Below, in pieces: positions 750 through 38,635 of a stretch of DNA of 54,370 nucleotides (positions within the stretch are counted from its first letter, which is position 1; the number at the start of each line of letters is the position of its first letter). Source of the stretch: a virus. The notes beneath the pieces were generated by a model that did not search any database, was not told the DNA's origin, and saw only the letters and a program-made list of their open reading frames with translations. The translations under genes were made by a program, and so were the position numbers. The stretch is taken from the IMG/VR virus record IMGVR_UViG_3300020421_000026, positions 1-54,370 of that record; one strand, given 5' to 3'.

Positions 750-2345
750 CTAAAGTAGTCCAATTGGCATTGGTTCGTCATACTCATCGATAGGCTTGTT
801 GTCATCGTATCTATCATCTCCACCTAAATTTTGATTAACAACTTCAAATATGTCATCTTCAAAACTTGCAATATATGATATCATCCTACAACAAATAACC
901 AAACTCATAACCAAATCATCTGTTTCACCTGGTTGTGCTGAAAAACTATTTCCTCTTGCAACAAAAGTTTTTAATTCTCTAATACATGCATCAGAAAAAA
1001 TTTTAATTTTATCTTGTTCTATAAATCGTTTTAATGTAATACAGCCGTCCAATTTACTTTTAGAACTTGTGTGAAAACCTTTTCTTCCTCTTTTACCTTG
1101 TACTTTTACAGGATCATGTAAAAAGTTTCCTGGGAAATTTTCTTCTCCTGTGTCTCTGATTACAACAAGAGCGGCTTCACCAATACTATTATTCTCAACT
1201 GTCCAATATATTTCTTTTGCTCCGTATTGATTTATTTCTTTTAAAATTTCTCTCATAACTCTTATTTGACCTTCTACAGGAGTCTTGTTGTGACACCATT
1301 CTGCAACCTGTGTCATCGAAGGAAGTTCAATTACTTGTATTGCGGCATTATCTCCGCCTGTTCCAGCGGCTGGATCAAGTGCTAACACATACGTTTTATC
1401 TGCTGTGGGCCTTTTATACCAACGTACTTCTCCTTGCCTGTACAAGACGTCTGTGTACTTTAGAGTAGCCAACTTTAAAGAGTCTATGAGTGTTTCATTG
1501 TAAATGATAAATTCACATTCATGCTCACGTCTAAAACGTTCTTCACCTATTCTACCTTGTTCTTCATCTTTCCAATCTTGGTCTCTGTCTGGGTGTTGGT
1601 CCCATTTTGCCAAATAGCCTTTAAATCCATTTACACCTACATCAGATGTATTACCATATTCATCTACAGTTTTTACTGCTTGGTGCCAAATCTGTGCAAA
1701 TGTGTCATCATCACTATTTGGTGTGCTGGTCACAATACATTTACCACCTGTTGCTAGTGTTGGTGATAATGAAGTCCAAAACTCTTTGGCTATTCTGGGT
1801 GGTACGAATGCAAACTCATCTAAGTACACTAATGTAAGTGACATACCTCTACCAGTATTTTCAGTTGTTGTACTTGCTACTATTCTACTACCATTATCAA
1901 AACTAATACTCATCTTGTTGTATTCAACAACTCCTGCTCTTATATGATTAGGAATACTTTCATACGCATATCTAATACGTTGCATGATTTCTTGTGAACC
2001 TGCCGCTTTGTGAGCCGCAACTAATATGGTACTGTCTGGTTTAAACATAGCAAACCAAAGTAAGTATCCTGCCGCCACAGTAGTTTTACCCATCTGTCTA
2101 CCCAGCATGTTTATACTGTACCTGTTTTTGTTGTAGTTTTGAATTAAATCTTCTTGGTAATCGTAAGGATCAAAAGCAATACCACCTTTTGTAGGGTGTT
2201 GTATGTTCACATACTTCTTCATAAAGAACATTGGACCGTCATTCGGATCACAACACTTCTGAAAGTCTTGCAACATATCAGAGTCATATTGAATTTTAGA
2301 GTATGCTTGTTTTACTAACTCAGTATTAACTGTTCCTTTTGGCAT
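750..2345 (-). CDS. gp17: Large terminase subunit gp17 (packaging ATPase/nuclease)
   Basis: Packages DNA into the prohead through the portal and cuts concatemers. At 531 aa it is somewhat shorter than T4 gp17 (about 610). The N-terminal ATPase shows a Walker A motif GRQMGKTT at residues 82-89, Walker B LVYLDE at about 172-177 and the coupling motif TSTPN at 206-210. The C-terminal RNase H-type nuclease begins near VLALDPAAG (about residue 320), with the first metal-binding Asp at 324. It is preceded by an ATAAATA late promoter 5 nt before the ATG and no Shine-Dalgarno. The small subunit gp16 is encoded about 4 kb away on the same strand, separated by a radical SAM gene and others. Identification is secure. 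Confidence 0.96.
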   Translation of the reverse strand: MPKGTVNTELVKQAYSKIQYDSDMLQDFQKCCDPNDGPMFFMKKYVNIQHPTKGGIAFDPYDYQEDLIQNYNKNRYSINMLGRQMGKTTVAAGYLLWFAMFKPDSTILVAAHKAAGSQEIMQRIRYAYESIPNHIRAGVVEYNKMSISFDNGSRIVASTTTENTGRGMSLTLVYLDEFAFVPPRIAKEFWTSLSPTLATGGKCIVTSTPNSDDDTFAQIWHQAVKTVDEYGNTSDVGVNGFKGYLAKWDQHPDRDQDWKDEEQGRIGEERFRREHECEFIIYNETLIDSLKLATLKYTDVLYRQGEVRWYKRPTADKTYVLALDPAAGTGGDNAAIQVIELPSMTQVAEWCHNKTPVEGQIRVMREILKEINQYGAKEIYWTVENNSIGEAALVVIRDTGEENFPGNFLHDPVKVQGKRGRKGFHTSSKSKLDGCITLKRFIEQDKIKIFSDACIRELKTFVARGNSFSAQPGETDDLVMSLVICCRMISYIASFEDDIFEVVNQNLGGDDRYDDNKPIDEYDEPMPIGLL

Positions 2346-17943: not shown

Positions 17944-19026
17944 ATGGATACAAACTACTACAACTATATAGAACATACAAAGCATAATATGTCTAAAATT
18001 TTAGACAAAGGCAGTATTGTACCCATAAAAGATGATGTAGGCGTAGGTTTTAGGTACTATGACACCGATAAAACAGACCAACTACAAATGAAAAAATTTA
18101 GAACAGTTGCTGATTATGATCCTAGATTATCAAATCAGTTTACTAAAGAAGATTCTTTTTTAGACTTTCCTGAGTTAAATTTACCTATAGACCTAGATGA
18201 TTTCTTTACAGATATAGACCACGAAATTTGTGAAAAGAAATTTTGGGGGAAAGGTGATGAGGACGACTCATCTACTCAACAAGTTGTTCATTCAAAGAAT
18301 ATAGGCTGGTTAATACATCCTGCTAGAAGTATAGGAACTAAAGTTGCTAAAGATGATAAAAGAGGTGTGTGCATTGGACATATTTTAAGTCCTAAGTACA
18401 AAAAATATTTTTGGGAATATGCAAACGACACTTTCCATGAAGATTTTATAGACATTATTAAAGACCATTTAGGATACAAACAAGTTCCTGTTAGTATTAT
18501 ATCAATAAAAGATTTACATCATTGGCATCACGAAGGTGTTCAACCTTGGCATGATTATACTCCAATTCCATATTATACAAGACGCACAGAAACATGTATT
18601 AACTTTAGATTATTTTCATCAACTGACGATGACGAAACAGAAGTAAATTTTGGTTGGCCCTCCGTTGAAGTGCATAAAGAGTTTTCTAAAATATCAGACG
18701 AACTAAATGAAAATATTATAGATAAATTTCAAGGAGATGAAGGCAGAAAGGTTGAATGGATACATAATGAAAATCTACAAATAAAAACTGCACTACATCA
18801 AGATACTATACTACCAGATTCACAACTCAATGACGAGATAGAATTAGTTGCAACTAAAAAAGGATATCATTGCCCTTTTATGATTAACACTAACTACTGG
18901 CATAGAGTTTACACAAAGGATACAAAGACACCTAGAATAACTTTAAGATTTTTTAGTCCTATGGGAGTTCCGTTTCATCATTTTAGAAAGTTACACCAGG
19001 AAGGTAAACTTTTAAAAAACTTGTAA
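17944..19026 (+). CDS. WHxE-family oxygenase-like protein (paralog 4 of 4, inverted)
   Basis: 360 aa from the ATG at 17944. An upstream in-frame start at 17836 is rejected because it lies within gp13 and before the promoter. Same framework as the three minus-strand copies: LDFPELNLPIDLDDFFTD, HWHHEG (WHxE), INFRLFSS, YWHRV, RITLRFFSP, and terminal GKLLKNL. It carries an extra N-terminal segment of about 60 residues. A plus-strand ATAAATA ends 5 nt before the ATG. It faces away from gp13 with only 45 bp between starts, and its last 15 bp overlap the convergent gene at 19012. Confidence 0.75.
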   Translation: MDTNYYNYIEHTKHNMSKILDKGSIVPIKDDVGVGFRYYDTDKTDQLQMKKFRTVADYDPRLSNQFTKEDSFLDFPELNLPIDLDDFFTDIDHEICEKKFWGKGDEDDSSTQQVVHSKNIGWLIHPARSIGTKVAKDDKRGVCIGHILSPKYKKYFWEYANDTFHEDFIDIIKDHLGYKQVPVSIISIKDLHHWHHEGVQPWHDYTPIPYYTRRTETCINFRLFSSTDDDETEVNFGWPSVEVHKEFSKISDELNENIIDKFQGDEGRKVEWIHNENLQIKTALHQDTILPDSQLNDEIELVATKKGYHCPFMINTNYWHRVYTKDTKTPRITLRFFSPMGVPFHHFRKLHQEGKLLKNL

Positions 19027-24366: not shown

Positions 24367-24443
24367 TGGCCCGCCCGGCAAGACTCGAACTTGCAACCTA
24401 CGGTTTAGAAGACCGTTGTTCTATCCAATTGAACTACGGGCGG
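24367..24443 (-). tRNA. tRNA-Arg: tRNA-Arg (anticodon TCT)
   Basis: A full cloverleaf reads on the minus strand. The acceptor stem CCGCCCG/CGGGCGG, D arm, anticodon stem ACGGT/ACCGT with loop CTTCTAA (anticodon TCT, reading AGA) and T arm GCAAG-TTCGAGT-CTTGC are all paired. The 3' CCA is encoded (77 nt with CCA). AGA is a preferred arginine codon in this AT-rich genome, so the tRNA probably supports phage codon use. Confidence 0.95.
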
Positions 24444-24450
24444 ATTGTTT

Positions 24451-25167
24451 TTAATCTACAAATGCCCTTTCTAGAACAAAGTCTCCTGGCTCACCTAGAT
24501 TTCCTTCTTGGAAACCTAAATTTTCAAAATAGTCCCTACATTCATAATTCATGTCTGGACCTCCACACACCATAACTCTATCAGTTTCTTTGTTAAATCC
24601 ACCATTAGTAAAGTTATCAATGTGTTCCCAAAAACGACCTTTACGCACATAATCGTCTTGTGTGCAAGTGTCGTAGTATGTTAAAGGAAATGTATTGCAC
24701 ATTTCTTGTATAACATCTGTGTAGGTATGCTCTGCATGTGTTCTTGTGGTATGACAGAGTATAACACTTTTGAACTTTTCATAAGTTTCTGGGTCTCTTA
24801 TAATACTCATAAAAGGTGCTATACCTGTCCCTGTTGATAGCAAATATAAGTTGTCTGCTTGTGTTACGTTATCAATCGTTAAAGTGCCGGTACACTTGGG
24901 GTTTACTAAAACTTCGTCTCCAACTTTTAAATGCTGTAAACGACTTGTAAGAGGTCCGTCGGGTACCTTAATACTTAAGAACTCCAACTCATCTTCGTAG
25001 TTTGCACTAGCAATACTGTATGCTCTTAGTAAAGGCTTTTCATCTACCCTTAATCCAATCATAGCAAACTCTCCGTTTACAAAACGAAAAGATTGATTTC
25101 TGGTTGTTTTAAAACTGAATGTTTTATCAGTCCAGTGATGTACCCATGTTACTGTTTCTGTGTTCAA
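24451..25167 (-). CDS. Ferredoxin/flavodoxin-NADP+ reductase
   Basis: 238 aa, cytoplasmic flavoprotein moving electrons between NADPH and ferredoxin or flavodoxin. FAD-binding RAYS at residues 48-51 and GPLTSRL at 71-77; NADP-binding STGTGIAPF at 111-119; a CGGPDMNYEC segment late; C-terminus LERAFVD as in the bacterial short-chain (Fpr-type) class. The start is TTG, in a TTGA overlap with the stop of the upstream 85-aa gene. No in-frame ATG lies near, and the N-terminus aligns with Fpr from there. The gene lies among radical SAM, di-iron and 2OG-type enzymes and could reduce their Fe-S or metal centres, which is inference. Confidence 0.9.
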   Translation of the reverse strand: MNTETVTWVHHWTDKTFSFKTTRNQSFRFVNGEFAMIGLRVDEKPLLRAYSIASANYEDELEFLSIKVPDGPLTSRLQHLKVGDEVLVNPKCTGTLTIDNVTQADNLYLLSTGTGIAPFMSIIRDPETYEKFKSVILCHTTRTHAEHTYTDVIQEMCNTFPLTYYDTCTQDDYVRKGRFWEHIDNFTNGGFNKETDRVMVCGGPDMNYECRDYFENLGFQEGNLGEPGDFVLERAFVD

Positions 25168-25421
25168 TGTTTAGTCGCCTTAAATGATTCAATCATTGCA
25201 TTTCTAACTTCTGGATCTTTAAGTTTTTCTAAAAATTCAGCATTTATTTCAAAAGTCATGCCTTTTTCCATCTTTGATATCAAACTTAAATCATCAACGC
25301 CTAGCATAACACATACTTCTTCAAATGTCAATAAGTTCAAGCCTTTTTCTTTAGCATCTATCAACAAATCAAAAATTGCGTCTGTTATTAAATCTTCTAA
25401 ATCTTTATACTTTTCACTCAT
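25164..25421 (-). CDS. Hypothetical protein, 85 aa, helical
   Basis: A small acidic, fully helical protein, not recognised. Leucine-rich N-terminal helix (LEDLITDAIFDLLIDAKEKG), then a segment LLTFEEVCVMLGVDDLSLI that resembles a helix-turn-helix pair, though this is weak. The start ATG has GGTGAG just upstream. It lies between tRNA-Ala and the reductase gene and overlaps the reductase start (TTGA), so it probably drives its translation. Confidence 0.7.
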   Translation of the reverse strand: MSEKYKDLEDLITDAIFDLLIDAKEKGLNLLTFEEVCVMLGVDDLSLISKMEKGMTFEINAEFLEKLKDPEVRNAMIESFKATKH

Positions 25422-25432
25422 TTCTCACCACG

Positions 25433-25508
25433 TGGTGGAGCGGACAGGGGTCGAACCTGCGACCTTCTGGATGCAAACCAGACGCTCTCCCAACTGAGCT
25501 ACCGCCCC
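25433..25508 (-). tRNA. tRNA-Ala: tRNA-Ala (anticodon TGC)
   Basis: Cloverleaf on the minus strand. Acceptor GGGGCGG pairs with CCGCTCC (one G-U), anticodon stem TCTGG/CCAGA with loop TTTGCAT (anticodon TGC), and T arm GCAGG-TTCGACC-CCTGT. Discriminator A and encoded CCA; 76 nt with CCA. It is flanked closely by two small protein genes, consistent with processing from a mixed transcript. Confidence 0.95.
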
Positions 25509-25514
25509 AAACTT

Positions 25515-25697
25515 CTATCTATTCATTAAAGCCTTCATATTATTACCAATCCTTTCTGCATTGGCACTAACATTCTTTGCTATTTCTTCTGCGTTCTTTC
25601 TAATGTTCTCTGCTATTACTTCACCACTCCATGGGTTAGGTGTAACTTTGGATACCTTTTTTGTTTTAGCCTTTACTTTGGCTTTTGTTTTAGTCAT
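25515..25697 (-). CDS. Small basic protein between tRNAs, 60 aa
   Basis: 60 aa from the ATG at 25697, which has an AGGAAA Shine-Dalgarno; an in-frame ATG nine codons earlier lacks one. The N-terminal third is Lys/Thr/Val-rich and very basic (KTKAKVKAKTKK). The rest is an amphipathic helix with a regular Asn/Ala/Ile pattern (AENIRKNAEEIAKNVSANAE) suggesting a coiled coil. Phasin-like or histone-like proteins have this style, but I do not recognise it. It lies in the tRNA cluster. Confidence 0.6.
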   Translation of the reverse strand: MTKTKAKVKAKTKKVSKVTPNPWSGEVIAENIRKNAEEIAKNVSANAERIGNNMKALMNR

Positions 25698-25759
25698 TCT
25701 AATATTTCCTAATATATGATCCACTTTATTAAGTGGACTGCATATTTACCAGATAAATC

Positions 25760-25849
25760 TGGCGGAGAGTGAGAGATTCGAACTCTCGGTACAGTTACCC
25801 GTACTCTTCCTTAGCAGGGAAGTGCTTTAAGCCACTCAGCCAACTCTCC
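25760..25849 (-). tRNA. tRNA-Ser: tRNA-Ser (anticodon GCT)
   Basis: Class II tRNA on the minus strand. Acceptor GGAGAGT pairs with ACTCTCC, anticodon stem CTTCC/GGAAG with loop CTGCTAA (anticodon GCT, reading AGC/AGT), a long variable arm, and T arm GAGAG-TTCGAAT-CTCTC. CCA is encoded; 90 nt with CCA. Confidence 0.95.
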
Positions 25850-31716: not shown

Positions 31717-33597
31717 TTACTTGTACAGTAATCTTTTAGCAGATTCACCATTTATAAGTGGTGCATATATTTTAACTGGTTCTTCTTTGCCTTTTACAGT
31801 TACACTACCCAATTTTTCATAAACAATGCCTGAAGGTTCCTTAAACTGATTTAATGTGAACTCACTAAACAGTATAGGAGTATCTTGTTTTCTAGTTTCT
31901 GCTTCTAATCTTGCACCCAAGTTTACAGCATCTCCAATCACACTATAATCTAATCTGTTTTCACTACCCATGTTTCCTACAATGCATGTTCCTGTGTTTA
32001 TACCTGTGCCAAATTTAACTCTTGGAAGTCCTAATTTTTCCATTTCTTTTTCTAATTCATCACCTAATAACTCAATTTCTATTGCACTCTTTAGAGCCAT
32101 GTCAGCATGATTATCACAAGGTATAGGTGCATTCCAAAAAGCCATAATACAGTCGCCCATGTACTTGTCTATAGTTCCCCCGTTGGCAAGTATAATTTTA
32201 GTCATCTTATCTAAGAAACTATTGATTAAATCTACTAACCCTTCAGGGTCATCTTGTTTCATAAACTTTTCTGATATAGGTGTAAAGCCTACAATGTCTG
32301 CAAATAGGAAACTCATCTCCCTTCTTTCACCACCCAACTTCATAAGACTTGGGTCTTTTACTAACATATTAACGTAATCTGGCGATATATACTTGCTGAA
32401 TTGACCTTTTATTTGCTGTCTTAGTCTGTATTGCTTGTAAAAATTGTTAAATGCACTATGAGTAAACACTAAAAATCCACTCAAAACTGGAAAAGTTGCA
32501 TCAATTAAGACCAGTTTATTGGTATAAAACCACACACTAGCATAGGCTTCTGTACCCAAAATCAGCATGGAAATTGGTGCTGTCCACACTAACGGTAACT
32601 TATAAACAGCAAAACCTATTAAAACCATGCTCATAAAAGCAACTAGAAGCTCTATAAAGGGCGATAACTCATTTCGTGTTATGTTACTACCATCTACAAA
32701 ATTTTGTAGCATATGGCCCTGTATTTGCTGTGGATACATGAGTCCTTTTGGAGTAGGTACAGCATTCTGTATGCCTTCTGCACTAACTCCTACTATAACA
32801 AATTTGCCTTTTAGGTCTGGTAGGCTCTGTATGTCCACATATTCTACTTCTTCAAACGTATTATTAAAACGTATAAAAGCAGTTCCGTTTGATTGTGATA
32901 CTATAGGTTCAAAAGGAGGTACAGCAAACTCTTGTATTCCTATTTCAGATGTTTTTAAGATATAACTGGGTTTTTGTGTATAAGTTCTCAACATCTCAAT
33001 AGCAAAACTAGGATATATTTTACCCTCAACTCCTATTGCTAATGGATATGTTCTAGTAACTAAATCAGGTTGTGGTGCTGATGCAAGTACGCCTATGCCT
33101 TCTGCATGTTCCTCAAGTGCTGGAATGTTTGTTACTAGGTTGGGCCAACTTAACAAAAAGTCCTGTGCTGGTAAAGGGCCTATTGTTCCTGTACCAATGT
33201 GCGGACCTGTACTCTTTACTCCTTTTGTACTTGGGGTCTGGGATAAAATCAGTCCGTTCCCCTTTATCCAACTCGCTAGTACTTCGTCCCCGCCGAACCG
33301 ATCCGCCTCCGGAAACATCACGGTCAATCCAATCATACCACCATTCTTCTGTCTGATATCGTGGATTAGTTGTGCAAAATTCTGTCTGGGCCATGGCCAT
33401 TGTCCCCATTGTTGTAAACTTTTTTCACCTATATTTATAATAACAACTTCGTCACTATTCTTAGGTTCATCTAGATTTTGTAATGCATCAAATGTTTGTA
33501 ATCTTAAACTTTGTAGTGGTGCTGGGTCAAAAACTTTTAATGTTGTTAGTAAACAAATTGTAAAAACGACTGCCCAGCCGCTGTAAAACCATTTCAT
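31717..33597 (-). CDS. CHASE2-domain adenylate cyclase (membrane sensor)
   Basis: 626 aa. One N-terminal transmembrane helix (about 5-22), an exported CHASE2 sensor domain (about 30-310; WPWPR, YPSFAIEML, GKFVIVGVSAEG), three transmembrane helices (about 313-383), then a class III cyclase domain (about 425-600). Catalytic residues are intact: metal ligands D434 (FADIVGF) and D482 (YMGD), base-selecting K478 and D550 (LDYSVIG), and N559/R563 for catalysis. K and D predict ATP, hence cAMP. It has its own promoter 5 nt before the ATG, directly downstream of the curli operon. CHASE2 cyclases and FecR proteins often occur together in bacteria. A host-derived sensor used late in infection is likely. 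Confidence 0.93.
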   Translation of the reverse strand: MKWFYSGWAVVFTICLLTTLKVFDPAPLQSLRLQTFDALQNLDEPKNSDEVVIINIGEKSLQQWGQWPWPRQNFAQLIHDIRQKNGGMIGLTVMFPEADRFGGDEVLASWIKGNGLILSQTPSTKGVKSTGPHIGTGTIGPLPAQDFLLSWPNLVTNIPALEEHAEGIGVLASAPQPDLVTRTYPLAIGVEGKIYPSFAIEMLRTYTQKPSYILKTSEIGIQEFAVPPFEPIVSQSNGTAFIRFNNTFEEVEYVDIQSLPDLKGKFVIVGVSAEGIQNAVPTPKGLMYPQQIQGHMLQNFVDGSNITRNELSPFIELLVAFMSMVLIGFAVYKLPLVWTAPISMLILGTEAYASVWFYTNKLVLIDATFPVLSGFLVFTHSAFNNFYKQYRLRQQIKGQFSKYISPDYVNMLVKDPSLMKLGGERREMSFLFADIVGFTPISEKFMKQDDPEGLVDLINSFLDKMTKIILANGGTIDKYMGDCIMAFWNAPIPCDNHADMALKSAIEIELLGDELEKEMEKLGLPRVKFGTGINTGTCIVGNMGSENRLDYSVIGDAVNLGARLEAETRKQDTPILFSEFTLNQFKEPSGIVYEKLGSVTVKGKEEPVKIYAPLINGESAKRLLYK

Positions 33598-33602
33598 GCA
33601 TG

Positions 33603-33609
33603 TATTTAT
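33603..33609 (-). promoter_or_regulatory. Late promoter of the adenylate cyclase
   Basis: ATAAATA, CATGC, ATG; 4 bp from the end of the second curlin-like gene. No Shine-Dalgarno. Confidence 0.7.
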
Positions 33610-33613
33610 TATA

Positions 33614-34519
33614 TTAATCTTGAGTTATTGTAATAGAACAGCCACCAGCAGTTTGACAAGTCTGGTTGAGGTTGTAAGATTGTGCTGTACCACTCATTTG
33701 TATTAAGTTTAATGTTGTTGGTTGTGATCCGTATAATGTGATATTGGCAGTATGAGCACCATTACCTTTTTGTACACCACTGATTTGACTACCGTTTTGA
33801 TAACTTTTATAATTTACAGTTTTGTTTCCGTCGTTGATTTGCTTCCACCAAATATCCTGATTGTTACCATATATCCAAATGTTTGCAGTATGGTATCCTG
33901 GATTACTTGTATTACCATTTGTTTGATAACCAGCAATAACATTATTGTCTCCGTGATAGTCTAAAATTGCTTTATGTCCACCGTGTTCTGAACTATCGCC
34001 TGTATCAAAGTCTGTATCATTTATGTTAGTAAGACCAACACCTTGACCCCATCTCATTAGATTGTTGTCTCCCCAAACGTGAAAACCTGCTTCTGTATAT
34101 TGACAACTGCCATCTTCTGTACACTTCTGTTTAATGTAAATATCATTATCAACACCATCTACATCTCCACAGAATGTTGCATTATTACAATTTACTTTAC
34201 CCCATGTGCTAGTAAATCCAGCAAAATTATTTTGTCCTTCTTGAGCAATTTTAACTAGATTACCATCACCTGATACAGAAAATTCAACCTCGTTGTCTTC
34301 TCCTAGTTGTCCAATCCACATAGTTAAATTATCAACATTACCGTATTGTAATCCTAAGTCTAAATCTATGTGTTGGTCTTTTCCTTCTTGGGAAATTGTT
34401 AAATCTAAGTTGTCGCCAACTTGGTCAATATGAACATGATTGTGCCCTTCTCCAGCAAACAAATCAAAACTTGCTGTTGCACAAAAAATTCCTAACAATG
34501 TTGCATATATAAATTTCAT
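33614..34519 (-). CDS. Curlin-repeat secreted fibre protein (major/minor subunit, second copy)
   Basis: 301 aa, exported. N-terminal signal peptide (MKFIYATLLGIFCATASFDLFAG). The mature part holds degenerate curlin-type repeats, alternating hydrophobic strands with Gln, Gly and Asn turns (IDQVGDNLDLTISQEG, IAQEGQNN, WIYGNNQDIWWKQ). There are two Cys pairs and an end CSITITQD, nearly shared with the upstream curlin-like protein (SIRQTD) and the FecR protein (ITIIQVD). It is predicted to form beta-solenoid amyloid-like fibres outside the cell through CsgG. TAATG overlap with the FecR gene gives coupled expression. Confidence 0.82.
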   Translation of the reverse strand: MKFIYATLLGIFCATASFDLFAGEGHNHVHIDQVGDNLDLTISQEGKDQHIDLDLGLQYGNVDNLTMWIGQLGEDNEVEFSVSGDGNLVKIAQEGQNNFAGFTSTWGKVNCNNATFCGDVDGVDNDIYIKQKCTEDGSCQYTEAGFHVWGDNNLMRWGQGVGLTNINDTDFDTGDSSEHGGHKAILDYHGDNNVIAGYQTNGNTSNPGYHTANIWIYGNNQDIWWKQINDGNKTVNYKSYQNGSQISGVQKGNGAHTANITLYGSQPTTLNLIQMSGTAQSYNLNQTCQTAGGCSITITQD

Positions 34520-35721
34520 TAATCCACCTGTATAATTGTGATGAATGTTCCTTCACAATCATTTAAACATATTGTAGCATCTTTTAAATTACTGTCTTCT
34601 ACAAATATTTGGGCACTATTACCTGAGTTTATTCTAACACTAACTGTATTTGTTACTTGTCTAAAAAAGAATAATTTTCCATCTTCTAAGACTGTGTTAA
34701 ATTGTGTTTCAGGGTCAAACCCAATAGCAGTACCTGTAATTTTGTCTGCGGCAATACTGCCTTCAGATTCGCTACCACCTTCTTTTTTCTCTTCTCCTAC
34801 ACTCACTTCTTCTATTGATTCAAGCAAGTCTTGTAAAAAATCAACATCTAGAAAATTTATATCTAGTGTTGTAAATTCTAAATCTTCTGTTGTGTCTGCT
34901 AACACATCTGCTTCAATGGCATTAGCATCTAATCCATCAAAGTCTAAAAGTCCAGCATCACCTTTTGCTTCTTCTTGTTGCTCCTCAACTGCTTCTTTTA
35001 TTTCACTTGGTTCACTTACAATAAACATGTTATCAATCATGTTTAAGTCTAAATCAGCAAGTAAAACAGGATTTGTTGGAGCCTGTTCTAATGTACTAAC
35101 CATAACAGCCTGAAAGGCTTCTGTTAATACTTGCACACCACCGTCATTTGTTATTGTTATACTACCTGACGGTCTGCACCCTTCTTCTAATTTTACTGTA
35201 TCTGTACAACCTGAGTCTGGTAATAATATTACTAGACTTCTTCCTAACTCGTCAACTGTTGTTGTAAAGTCAGTACCCCTAATACCTATTGTGGCTGTAG
35301 GAGTTTGTACAACTATATTTTCTTTAGGTACTAATCCCAATCCGCCTGTGGCAAAACGTGCTGTTCCTTGCACAAAATCTAATGCCATCCTACTCTTACT
35401 TGGATCAGGATCGTACACATACTCATTAATAACCATATATGTGTGTTCAGTTAAACTAACTTGTGTATCATCTATGAATTTTAATTTTAAACGACCATTT
35501 ATCGTTTCAACTTCATCATTGCTTTGTATGTCTGTGTCTAGTTCTGCAATCAATCTTTCACCAGACGTTCTACTAATACTGCCAGGCGAGCCCACTTGCT
35601 CTAATATCCCGCCGATGCTCTCATTGGCACCGGCGGAAATACTGTATGTTGCACTAAACAACAAAAATGCATATAAACAAACTTTAGTCAGTTTGTCTAA
35701 TTGAAACTGAAGCATTTTCAC
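34519..35721 (-). CDS. FecR-domain secreted protein with curlin-like C-terminal end
   Basis: 400 aa. Signal peptide with a hydrophobic core (CLYAFLLFSATYSISAGA), then a FecR domain (about residues 45-215) with IESNDEV-style and PTATIGIRGTDF motifs typical of the family. An acidic linker (about 245-335) follows, and a C-terminal beta segment ends CLNDCEGTFITIIQVD, which resembles the ends of the two flanking curlin-like proteins. Probably periplasmic or exported, acting as sensor, nucleator or surface-anchored part of the fibre. Its start overlaps the upstream gene by 38 bp, with no in-frame alternative. Confidence 0.83.
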   Translation of the reverse strand: MKMLQFQLDKLTKVCLYAFLLFSATYSISAGANESIGGILEQVGSPGSISRTSGERLIAELDTDIQSNDEVETINGRLKLKFIDDTQVSLTEHTYMVINEYVYDPDPSKSRMALDFVQGTARFATGGLGLVPKENIVVQTPTATIGIRGTDFTTTVDELGRSLVILLPDSGCTDTVKLEEGCRPSGSITITNDGGVQVLTEAFQAVMVSTLEQAPTNPVLLADLDLNMIDNMFIVSEPSEIKEAVEEQQEEAKGDAGLLDFDGLDANAIEADVLADTTEDLEFTTLDINFLDVDFLQDLLESIEEVSVGEEKKEGGSESEGSIAADKITGTAIGFDPETQFNTVLEDGKLFFFRQVTNTVSVRINSGNSAQIFVEDSNLKDATICLNDCEGTFITIIQVD

Positions 35722-36502
35722 TGTCTAAATCAACGTCTATTTTACCAGGACATGCAGGACTACAAGTAGCCGCATTACTTTGTAAGAATTGAAAATCACC
35801 GTCTGACCCTACTAAAACAAATTTTAAGTAGTGGTTAGCATTACCTGTTTGGTTAGATGTGATAGCATTATCATCACCCGTGATATTCATTTCCCAAGTT
35901 GCGGAACCGGAGTCTACTTTAACACCACTTTGTGAAAAAGCAGATGTGTTATTCCAATCAGAACCAGGAGTACCACTCCATGCTTTTGAGTTTGAAACAG
36001 CATTCCTAAAGTCGTTCCTGTCACCTAGTATCGTCAAATCCATATTAAGGTTGTCTGCGGCAAAGTTTGCACCAATATCTATATCAAAAATGTTTGTATC
36101 ACCTTGAATGTTCCAAAGCATATCAACATTATCTGCACTACCAGATGCACCTATGTTTAAATCTAATGAATTAGAATCTCCTAAAAAGTAGAAATCCCAT
36201 ACAGTTGATCCAGAACCGTCTCCAGTCCATGCACCAAATATTTCATTACCATCACCGTCTTGAATGATATCAATAATCAAATTAGATCCTGTGATAACTA
36301 AATCGCTACCGTCACCAGCATCACCTGATATCTTGTTAGCACTACCAGCCTGTAATATGGTCAAAGTTAGATTATCCCCTTGTTGGTCTAATAAAACTTC
36401 GTTGTCGTCAGCACCTATGGCAGGAGCAAATAATCCTACTGTTAGGCCCATGACTGCGAAGACATTGATTGCAAAATTTTTAAATAAATTTTTAGTCTTC
36501 AT
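35684..36502 (-). CDS. Curlin-repeat secreted fibre protein (first copy)
   Basis: 272 aa from the ATG at 36502. In-frame ATGs at 36514 and 36505 also exist, but GGAG lies at the right spacing from 36502. A signal peptide (FAINVFAVMGLTVGLFAPAIGA) is followed by repeats of the form (I/L)xxxGDxN (NIQGDTNIFDIDIG, TILGDRNDF, NITGDDNAI) with QAG and QTG elements. This is curlin-like, Asp/Asn-rich rather than the Gln/Asn-rich E. coli CsgA. The end is CSPACPGKID...VSIRQTD. It overlaps the end of csgG by about 11 bp. Predicted substrate of CsgG. Confidence 0.82.
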   Translation of the reverse strand: MKTKNLFKNFAINVFAVMGLTVGLFAPAIGADDNEVLLDQQGDNLTLTILQAGSANKISGDAGDGSDLVITGSNLIIDIIQDGDGNEIFGAWTGDGSGSTVWDFYFLGDSNSLDLNIGASGSADNVDMLWNIQGDTNIFDIDIGANFAADNLNMDLTILGDRNDFRNAVSNSKAWSGTPGSDWNNTSAFSQSGVKVDSGSATWEMNITGDDNAITSNQTGNANHYLKFVLVGSDGDFQFLQSNAATCSPACPGKIDVDLDSENASVSIRQTD

Positions 36503-37472
36503 CATTTTCTCCATTTTTCTTCAGGAGCATTTTCTCCCAAAGTTTTTTATCGGCTTTAAGATCCTCTTCTTCTATATCAACTTGCATCCATGTTGCGTTT
36601 TCGTCCTCTGATAATTCTTGAACGTCCCACCCTTCAGGATACACAATTTTCCAATAGCCTCTCTCATCGCCTTGTTGTATCAATGCCAATACCGCGGCTT
36701 CAATAGCCGAACGTACTGCCCATGTAACACTTTCGTTCTCTGTCATACCACTTTCTAATTCAAGAAGTTTTGTGTCCATGTCTAAAAATCTAAACACATC
36801 TCCTCCTATCCCTGTACTCAAAATGGTTTTGTATGTCTGTACGTTGAGTAACACTTCGCCCGTGAGTGTGCTTACGGCTCTCAGTGATACAACAACACTA
36901 TCTCTTCGATATTGATTAGTTGTTCCAATACCTAGATATCTTGCCCCATTACCTCCAGTTTCAATATTAGTGTCATATCCAATGATACCACCTTCTAATA
37001 TCATACCTGCAAATAATAGCGGTTGGACTCCTTCTGCTGGTTTTTCGTCTGTGGCAAATTGTTCACGAGTACTTCGAACAATTTGTCTTTCTCGCACAAG
37101 GTTGTCTAGTCCTAAACCTCTTTCTACAACTCTAAACCACGTGCCTTTAGGATCATCCTTAGCACCTGCGGCTTTTAAAGAGTCAATTAATAAATCTTTT
37201 GCACCTTGCGTAACTGCGGTGCTGAAACTTGCAACTCCATCTGAACTCATCCTTTGTCCAGTTAAGTCGTCAAATTTGTAAACTGCAACCACTGGCTTTA
37301 CTTCTGCTGGTGGCAAGTTTCTTAGTTTCTTATATGTGGGTAATTCAACGAATTTTGGTTCTTCAATACATTCTAATAATGACGTATTGCAGACTTTGTC
37401 GCCAGGTATGGAAATGCTGGCGCATCCGCTAATTAGCAAAGCAAATATTACTGCTATAATTCCATTTTTCAA
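36492..37472 (-). CDS. csgG: CsgG-type outer-membrane curli secretion channel
   Basis: 326 aa, about 50 longer than E. coli CsgG (277 aa). Lipoprotein signal with lipobox LISGC (Cys17), then family segments LPPAEVKPVVAVYKFDDLTGQ, the VRERQIVR element, and the membrane-strand region GIIGYDTNIETGGNGARYLGIGTTNQYRRDSVVVSLRAV (split here by eye), then GEVLLNVQTYKTI. CsgG assembles a 36-strand gated outer-membrane pore. The C-terminal 50 residues are acidic and charged, unlike typical CsgG. It lies 3 nt after csgF and overlaps the next curlin-like gene, so the operon order is csgF-csgG-fibre genes. Confidence 0.94.
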   Translation of the reverse strand: MKNGIIAVIFALLISGCASISIPGDKVCNTSLLECIEEPKFVELPTYKKLRNLPPAEVKPVVAVYKFDDLTGQRMSSDGVASFSTAVTQGAKDLLIDSLKAAGAKDDPKGTWFRVVERGLGLDNLVRERQIVRSTREQFATDEKPAEGVQPLLFAGMILEGGIIGYDTNIETGGNGARYLGIGTTNQYRRDSVVVSLRAVSTLTGEVLLNVQTYKTILSTGIGGDVFRFLDMDTKLLELESGMTENESVTWAVRSAIEAAVLALIQQGDERGYWKIVYPEGWDVQELSEDENATWMQVDIEEEDLKADKKLWEKMLLKKNGENDED

Positions 37473-37475
37473 TTT

Positions 37476-37976
37476 TTATCCGCCTAATGTTCCAATTCCG
37501 ATAGGTATTTCTATTTCAGTAATTGTTCCATCTGCGTCAACAATAGTTAGTCTAATGTATTCTATTCCATCTACTGTAACTACCGTGTATGAGACGTTAC
37601 TGTCCTCAATAGTAAATGCACCTTCGGTAGAATTGGTACAAGTTGGTACTTCTGCTGGATTACAAAACATACTATCAACCAATCCCTTAGAAATTTGTGA
37701 ATAAATCCTACTCTCCAAATTTCTAATAAATTTGTTAATTGTGCTGTTATTTTCCAATCTATCTGCCGCTCTAAGAGCCGCTTCTATATCATCTGCTATT
37801 TTATCTTTTCTGCTCTTTTCCTGATTTTCAATCGTAAGGTAATGAGCACCGGTTCCTATTCCACTAAAACTTGGATTTTTAAACTTATGTTTTAGTTGGT
37901 CAGCAAACACGGTTTGTGATGCAAAAAATGCCAACATGACTACAATTCCTAAATGTGTTCCTGTTATCTTCATCAT
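37476..37976 (-). CDS. csgF: CsgF-type curli assembly protein
   Basis: 166 aa, near the size of E. coli CsgF (138). Signal peptide ending near TVFA, then the mature N-terminus HKFKNPSFSGIGTGAHYL, the conserved segment that binds inside the CsgG constriction (E. coli FRNPNFGG). A C-terminal beta domain (SYTVVTVDGIEYIRLTIVD) follows as in CsgF. An insertion with two Cys (MFCNPAEVPTCTN) is present. The first ATG overlaps the upstream stop (ATGA). CsgE, CsgC and CsgD are not seen in this window. Confidence 0.92.
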   Translation of the reverse strand: MMKITGTHLGIVVMLAFFASQTVFADQLKHKFKNPSFSGIGTGAHYLTIENQEKSRKDKIADDIEAALRAADRLENNSTINKFIRNLESRIYSQISKGLVDSMFCNPAEVPTCTNSTEGAFTIEDSNVSYTVVTVDGIEYIRLTIVDADGTITEIEIPIGIGTLGG

Positions 37977-38278
37977 TTTTTCTTCTTTTGTTGAGACATT
38001 TCCCTTTCAGCGAGTGCCTCTTTTTCCTCTGCGTCTTGCAAAATTTCTTGCCGTGTTCTATACTCTAACACAACATCTACTTTTTGTTGCAAACGAATTA
38101 AGTCTTGGTCCAACATTCTTGTTTGGTCTATAACTCTTATAAGAGCCATATGCATCTTTCCTAATGCTGGTTTTATTTCCGTATTAATATATTTCCATAC
38201 ATAGTATATAAAATATCCTAAGCCTACACAGGCTACGACCGGAAAACCATATTGTGAAATTAATGCCGCTATGTCCAT
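37973..38278 (-). CDS. Small membrane protein with coiled coil (tandem pair, second)
   Basis: 101 aa. One N-terminal transmembrane helix (about residues 11-30, YGFPVVACVGLGYFIYYVW), then a charged helical tail that looks like a coiled coil, ending in a lysine run. It is clearly paralogous with the next protein: GFP followed by a hydrophobic stretch with GYFI. Stop and start overlap with csgF (ATGA) and with the paralog (TAATG). In cellular curli clusters no such proteins are standard. It may form an inner-membrane partner of the secretion system or act as a holin or spanin-like factor; neither is shown. Confidence 0.75.
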   Translation of the reverse strand: MDIAALISQYGFPVVACVGLGYFIYYVWKYINTEIKPALGKMHMALIRVIDQTRMLDQDLIRLQQKVDVVLEYRTRQEILQDAEEKEALAEREMSQQKKKK

Positions 38279-38574
38279 TAATCTCTCCTTACATCGAGTT
38301 TACCGTCCTCAATAAAGTTTTCTGCCCGGGCTACCCGTTCGATATCAGGTCTTAACTCCAATGCACTACTGACTAACATATCGATTTTAATCATCTCGTT
38401 ACTCATAGTTCTTGCTCTATTTTCTAAGGATTCGCAAAACTTAGTCAATGTTTCGACCTGACCGACGACGCCAGCCATTAATTGCTTAATTATAATAAAA
38501 ATAAAATATCCCATTACGATTGCTCCGGCAATAGGGAATCCTACTTCTGCTATTAATTGAAATACTTCTTTCAT
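38278..38574 (-). CDS. Small membrane protein with coiled coil (tandem pair, first)
   Basis: 98 aa from the ATG at 38574 (a GTG two codons earlier is possible). N-terminal transmembrane helix (about 12-35, GFPIAGAIVMGYFIFIIIKQL) followed by a helical, mostly charged domain. Same layout as the next gene, with LIxxxGFPxxxxxxxGYFI in common, so this is a tandem duplication. First gene of the seven-gene curli-like operon, behind a late promoter at 38660-38666 and a 7-bp hairpin in the leader. Function unknown. Confidence 0.75.
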   Translation of the reverse strand: MKEVFQLIAEVGFPIAGAIVMGYFIFIIIKQLMAGVVGQVETLTKFCESLENRARTMSNEMIKIDMLVSSALELRPDIERVARAENFIEDGKLDVRRD

Positions 38575-38635
38575 CTGCACACTCTGTTTGTTTATAATTC
38601 TATTTTTGTAGTGTGATGTATGTGTTACTCTACAA

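Follow-up and report, generated by a model that had tools for sequence, protein, structure and literature searches.

The cyclase gene and its product

The 54,370-nucleotide virus record IMGVR_UViG_3300020421_000026 (hereafter the window, meaning the whole stretch of DNA analyzed) carries on its minus strand an operon of curli genes that ends in a gene for a predicted membrane-bound cyclase with a CHASE2 sensor domain. The open reading frame (ORF) of this cyclase is intact and encodes a protein of 626 amino acids (aa).

31717..33597, minus strand: CHASE2–class III cyclase, 626 aa; first transmembrane helix (TM1), periplasmic CHASE2 domain, TM2 to TM4, cytosolic cyclase domain

The original prediction had read this gene as a phage-encoded CHASE2 cyclase with its catalytic residues in place, and the domain searches bear this out. 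CHASE2 (PF05226, E=3.9e-40) covers residues 16 to 327 of the protein, and Guanylate_cyc (PF00211, E=2e-16) covers residues 427 to 607. The AlphaFold2 model, with a mean predicted local distance difference test score of 87.8, begins with a helix (residues 2 to 23) followed by a mixed alpha/beta domain (about 26 to 310), which presumably faces the periplasm, then helices spanning residues 312 to 333, 336 to 361, and 368 to 401, and finally the cyclase fold (421 to 613). This arrangement, wherein an N-terminal TM, CHASE2, and three further TMs precede the output domain, is the layout of CHASE2 sensors. It is shared with bacterial class IIIb CHASE2 cyclases such as CyaD1 of Sinorhizobium meliloti, which has been named as a CHASE2 protein (PMC5498481). 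The nearest solved structures are catalytic domains, among them those of CyaB, Cya2, CyaC, and OaPAC. Pseudomonas aeruginosa CyaB (3r5g), Spirulina CyaC (1wc1), and OaPAC (4yus) have the same catalytic fold and active-site layout as the window cyclase, whereas their input domains are wholly unlike CHASE2.

The residues that mark a class III nucleotidyl cyclase are present, namely the metal-binding residues D434 and D482 and the transition-state residues N559 and R563. The base-selecting pair, originally read as K/D, is K478/S552 in our alignment, in which S552 is matched with D1018 of the mammalian enzyme and with a threonine in both CyaB and OaPAC; the aspartate noticed at first was probably D550. 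Lysine with threonine or serine at these positions, rather than Lys/Asp, is the pattern of class IIIb adenylate cyclases, to which the window enzyme conforms when aligned to CyaB and OaPAC. K/S or K/T is likewise the rule among bacterial CHASE2 cyclases, being found in 76 of those sampled. Because lysine with serine or threonine is the class IIIb pattern, and also predicts the use of ATP, cyclic AMP (cAMP) remains the best guess for the product despite the corrected residue. The enzyme is probably active, and its product is probably cAMP.

Among 83 phage copies of the gene, D434, K478, D482, and R563 are invariant. Against relatives, the rate of nonsynonymous change (dN) in the cyclase domain is ~0.09 to 0.15 vs a synonymous rate (dS) of ~0.9 to 1.6, giving a dN/dS of ~0.1, and both the sensor and the cyclase domain are under purifying selection. 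Overall, the sequence points to a real signaling enzyme that is probably functional.

The curli operon and its expression

The cyclase is the last member of the following minus-strand gene order.

38278..38580, minus strand: small membrane protein, 100 aa, phrog_18771, paralogue of its neighbor; start of the operon
37973..38278, minus strand: small membrane protein, 101 aa, phrog_18771, with a weak holin-family match; conserved upstream partner
37476..37976, minus strand: CsgF (PF10614, 2.6e-11)
36492..37472, minus strand: CsgG, the outer-membrane curli export pore (PF03783, 1.7e-47)
35684..36514, minus strand: curlin-repeat protein 1, 276 aa, ending in SIRQTD; Curlin_rpt just under the cut-off
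34519..35721, minus strand: FecR-domain protein, 400 aa, ending in ITIIQVD; PupR-like FecR fold plus a C-terminal beta domain (~328 to 398)
33614..34519, minus strand: curlin-repeat protein 2, 301 aa, ending in SITITQD; Curlin_rpt above the Pfam cut-off
33598..33613, minus strand: 16-nucleotide (nt) gap with a late-promoter-like TAAATA that ends exactly 5 nt upstream of the cyclase start codon

The repeats of curlin-repeat protein 1 have a period of ~26 aa. The conserved order of CsgF, CsgG, curlin repeats, FecR, and adenylate cyclase identifies the operon as a type VIII secretion module of the kind found in pelagiphages. For pelagiphages, both podo- and myoviruses, Wittmers et al. 2022 reported that the curli modules include adenylate cyclase and FecR, and described for these modules an alphaproteobacterial origin, a wide ocean distribution, expression in metatranscriptomes, and, ahead of csgF, one or two “histidine kinases” (PMC9599517). 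Two paralogous membrane proteins of ~100 aa precede csgF in all long loci and may be the proteins so named; a Pfam kinase domain was not found in either.

The order csgF-csgG-curlin-fecR-curlin-(...)-cyclase is kept in the cultured phages HTVC008M (gp14 to gp19) and Melnitz (gp99 to gp104), which are also marine, and in every IMG/VR locus of sufficient length. Wherever a phage locus is long enough to judge, the cyclase follows the curli and fecR genes on the same strand. It is thus a member of the operon, and not a gene standing apart from it as had first been supposed. Many related phages have additional genes, up to ~7 kb of them, inserted after curlin 2 and ahead of the cyclase. In some relatives from the jumbo lineage described below (L037:4935-9550 and L043:4871-9549), the inserted genes encode a protein of 474 to 480 aa and one of 1070 to 1088 aa along with a small membrane protein.

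A promoter of the cyclase's own, directly after the curli operon, had also been proposed. A sigma-70 promoter was rejected, as no sigma-70 pair is present in the 16-nt gap and promoter-like sites across the region are no more frequent than in shuffled sequences. What survives of the proposal is the TAAATA element. Of 42 distinct phage copies, 32 have a spacing of exactly 5 nt between the end of this element and the start codon of the cyclase, and 2 more have one of 6 nt; the remaining 8 overlap an upstream ORF. The same spacing occurs ahead of 8 of the 47 ORFs in the window (chance ~2e-18) and of 7 of 30 ORFs in the first 26 kb of HTVC008M, several of which are structural genes. Window ORFs with the element at 5 nt include those starting at 2345, 6678, 27817, and 33597 on the minus strand and at 17944 and 30801 on the plus strand. 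The enrichment is limited to TAAATA at this fixed spacing; the exact motif TATAAATA shows no enrichment across the window (2 observed vs 6.7 expected). The element resembles the T4-type late promoter core, and TATAAAT has been used as the late promoter core for Melnitz (PMC9004378). Given this resemblance, late expression of the cyclase is plausible. Read-through from curlin 2 is likely, since only 16 nt separate the two genes, and a T4-type late-promoter-like element ahead of the cyclase is a plausible addition to it. If TAAATA is such a core, late transcripts would begin at the start codon or immediately beside it and be leaderless.

Lineage, relatives, and module exchange

The phage had been taken for a pelagimyophage. 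That identity, of the HTVC008M or Kyanoviridae-like kind, is ruled out by the terminase, the sheath, and nucleotide matches.

750..2345, minus strand: terminase large subunit of the PA5oct/Atu_ph07 jumbo type, which marks the phage lineage

The terminase is closest to those of PA5oct-type jumbo phages (57% aa identity), followed by Sinorhizobium phage Phosso and Agrobacterium phage Atu_ph07. The 929-aa sheath agrees, being 43% identical to that of PA5oct-type jumbo phages. The same terminase, at 66 to 83% identity, accompanies the cyclase in six related IMG/VR contigs, including one of 250,519 bases. These sequence markers place the phage among the marine jumbo myoviruses, as a relative of PA5oct and Atu_ph07. 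SAR11 is the host of HTVC008M and should not be assumed to be the host of the window phage. Three tRNA genes (Arg-TCT, Ala-TGC, and Ser-GCT) lie in the window at 24367-25849, beside a reductase-like gene (24451-25167); many relatives have homologues of this gene in the interval separating curlin 2 from the cyclase.

Sensor cyclases had been called rare in phages. This holds for cultured records, of which nine carry such a cyclase, but IMG/VR contains 153 relatives, and the association with curli modules is published (PMC9599517). The homologous CHASE2 cyclase of HTVC008M is 41% identical to that of the window and is already annotated as a cyclase in GenBank; the Melnitz homologue is 35% identical. 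The sensors of HTVC008M and Melnitz are only 33 to 36% identical to that of the window, and their modules are carried by Kyanoviridae or HTVC023P-type phages, whereas the window phage is a jumbo myovirus.

The sensors of the 83 phage copies fall into two types and the cyclases into three. The sensor of the jumbo lineage, alpha, is paired with cyclase A, B, or C; HTVC008M combines sensor beta with A, and Melnitz combines it with C. Cyclase A, the type in the window, has K/S at the base site and is without the C-terminal extension carried by most bacterial CHASE2 cyclases. Cyclase B has K/T or K/S. Cyclase C has K/D together with serine in place of the transition-state N559, a combination not seen among the sampled bacterial CHASE2 cyclases; it occurs in Melnitz (L003) and in seven IMG/VR loci (L067, L076, L078-L080, L082, and L083). 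In quick trees with support from the Shimodaira–Hasegawa-like approximate likelihood-ratio test (SH-aLRT) only, the cyclase type changes 11 times on the sensor tree (minimum 2), whereas on the cyclase tree B and C each form one clade and A needs two changes. Judged from these topologies, there is therefore repeated recombination inside the cyclase gene. The sensor may be the mobile half, because FecR, CsgG, and curlin 1 track the cyclase better than the sensor in the jumbo set.

Bacterial CHASE2 cyclases of class IIIb resemble the window enzyme in having lysine with serine or threonine at the base site, and a FecR gene often adjoins them, lying directly upstream in several bacteria (e.g., Ruegeria). 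Unlike the window cyclase, most lie away from curli genes, and CsgF is present in only 1 of the 24 genomes with the nearest CHASE2 cyclases. Other alphaproteobacterial csgF loci (L171-L175) have csgG and sometimes curlin, and a cyclase or FecR was not recognized within ~10 kb of them. One contig of a freshwater Caulobacteraceae metagenome-assembled genome (L084) carries csgF-csgG-curlin-curlin-like-fecR-CHASE2 cyclase in the phage order, flanked by glycosyltransferase and TonB-receptor genes. Its sensor clusters with those of the phages (SH-aLRT 100%), and the clade of phage and L084 sensors is exactly the curli-linked set within the sample. The shared operon order in an alphaproteobacterium suggests that the cyclase was already part of the module when phages acquired it, although for a single such contig, contamination or reverse transfer is possible.

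Input, output, and role of the cyclase

The reading we favor, with somewhat better than even confidence for the whole, is that a functional cyclase with CHASE2 as its input serves as the terminal gene of a phage curli module and reports on the state of the periplasm. Beyond a CHASE2 input, a cAMP output, and membership in the curli operon, we infer the mechanism as follows. Late in infection, the phage would make CsgG and CsgF, the curlin-repeat subunits, FecR, and the cyclase, an inner-membrane homodimeric class IIIb adenylate cyclase encoded at the end of this phage-borne type VIII secretion module. The periplasmic CHASE2 domain, with FecR as partner, would monitor the state of the periplasm or the export of curli subunits. 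The TM helices and the helical linker (368 to 401) would relay the signal to the cyclase dimer, which would then turn ATP into cAMP.

A role for FecR is raised by its C terminus, since the protein shares a terminal strand motif with the curlins and could therefore read out curli export. The motif [IVLFA]x[IVF]xQ ends 20/20 distinct phage FecR proteins, 14/16 curlin-1 proteins, and 23/26 curlin-2 proteins; among 405 other phage ORFs of at least 150 aa, the window's own curlin 2 is the only match. One of 26 bacterial FecR proteins ends in this way, and the curli-linked FecR of L084 ends in INVTQD. The phage protein has the FecR fold of the FecR/PupR cell-surface signaling protein (PDB 6ovk; VIA Z 15.2, rmsd (root-mean-square deviation) 2.7 over 139 residues) and, unlike PupR, an extra C-terminal beta domain with the curlin-like end. 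An anti-sigma domain was not recognized in the phage FecR. The FecR and curlin ends presumably resemble that of CsgB. In Escherichia coli, the C-terminal repeat (R5) of CsgB promotes fiber formation (PMC10133297). The motif fits a FecR tied to curli but falls short of proof.

Several observations weigh against the favored reading. The FecR C-terminal beta domain, compared within the full-length model, has no confident match to the curlin solenoid or to any PDB fold, and a curlin-like fold for it was rejected. In jumbo-type loci, the identity of FecR tracks that of the cyclase (r 0.45) and not that of the sensor (r 0.14, p 0.13); the overall FecR–CHASE2 correlation of 0.81 stems from deep lineage splits, such that coevolution of FecR and sensor is unsupported as evidence of coupling within the jumbo clade. 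The extra genes after curlin 2 indicate that the pairing of cyclase and curli genes is not tight everywhere, and the change of N559 to serine in type C copies means that activity may not be universal. Finally, no receiver for cAMP turned up. Searches of the window, HTVC008M, Melnitz, the 250-kb jumbo relative, and nine further, shorter records found no cyclic nucleotide monophosphate (cNMP)-binding domain, and such a domain is absent from 137 of 147 SAR11-order genomes, which were identified with a 16S probe sequence. An ORF with a cNMP-binding-like domain, 870 aa where complete, is present in 10 of the 147 (L208-L213). The original proposal that the phage raises cAMP late in infection thus retains its timing, as late expression is probable, whereas the effect on host physiology has no identified receiver in the phage records or in most SAR11 genomes.

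A more elaborate form of this scheme appears rather doubtful to us. It holds that the curlin-tailed FecR and the CHASE2 cyclase form a transenvelope feedback device that senses export or assembly of phage curli and makes a cyclic nucleotide late in infection, with its modules exchanged among jumbo phages and with a target other than CRP.

The active adenylate cyclase might instead sense a general envelope or environmental cue (an ion, a solute, or envelope stress) independently of curli and FecR, having been co-acquired with the module and kept to raise cAMP. CHASE2 ligands are not known, most bacterial relatives lie away from curli genes, and within the jumbo clade the sensor covaries with neither FecR nor CsgG. 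However, the sensor clade of the phages and L084 coincides with the curli-linked set, and the gene order is preserved across unrelated phage lineages. We regard this alternative as a serious candidate, though an unlikely one.

That the product acts locally, rather than signaling to a CRP-like protein, seems improbable. It could serve some phage or host protein, interfere with a nucleotide-signal defense, or drain ATP before lysis. The failure to find cNMP-binding domains in the searched phage records, their absence from most SAR11-order genomes, and the occurrence of a class III cyclase in 0/147 of these genomes agree with such a role. However, the jumbo phage's real host may have CRP-family receptors, PF00027 misses some cAMP-binding folds, and the window, like most IMG/VR records, is a fragment. 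That the cyclase is a useless passenger of the curli module is hardly credible, being largely refuted already by dN/dS and by the fact that the metal residues, the base-site lysine, and the arginine never vary among the 83 copies, even where the cyclase type has been swapped, and its conserved upstream element also speaks against it.

Two further papers describe phage curli genes without naming the cyclase, and in the open-access literature searched we found no description of the jumbo lineage, of CHASE2 as the input, of the exchange between sensor and output, of the FecR C terminus, or of a bacterial locus with the full order. The curli and cyclase module, so far described for SAR11 and OM43 phages, is thus also present in a separate marine jumbo lineage. 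This raises the questions of whether FecR links curli export to the cyclase and of what reads cAMP in hosts that perhaps are without CRP-type receptors. Because the enzyme has been recombined as modules while its catalytic core was kept, the signal output is argued to matter to the phage.
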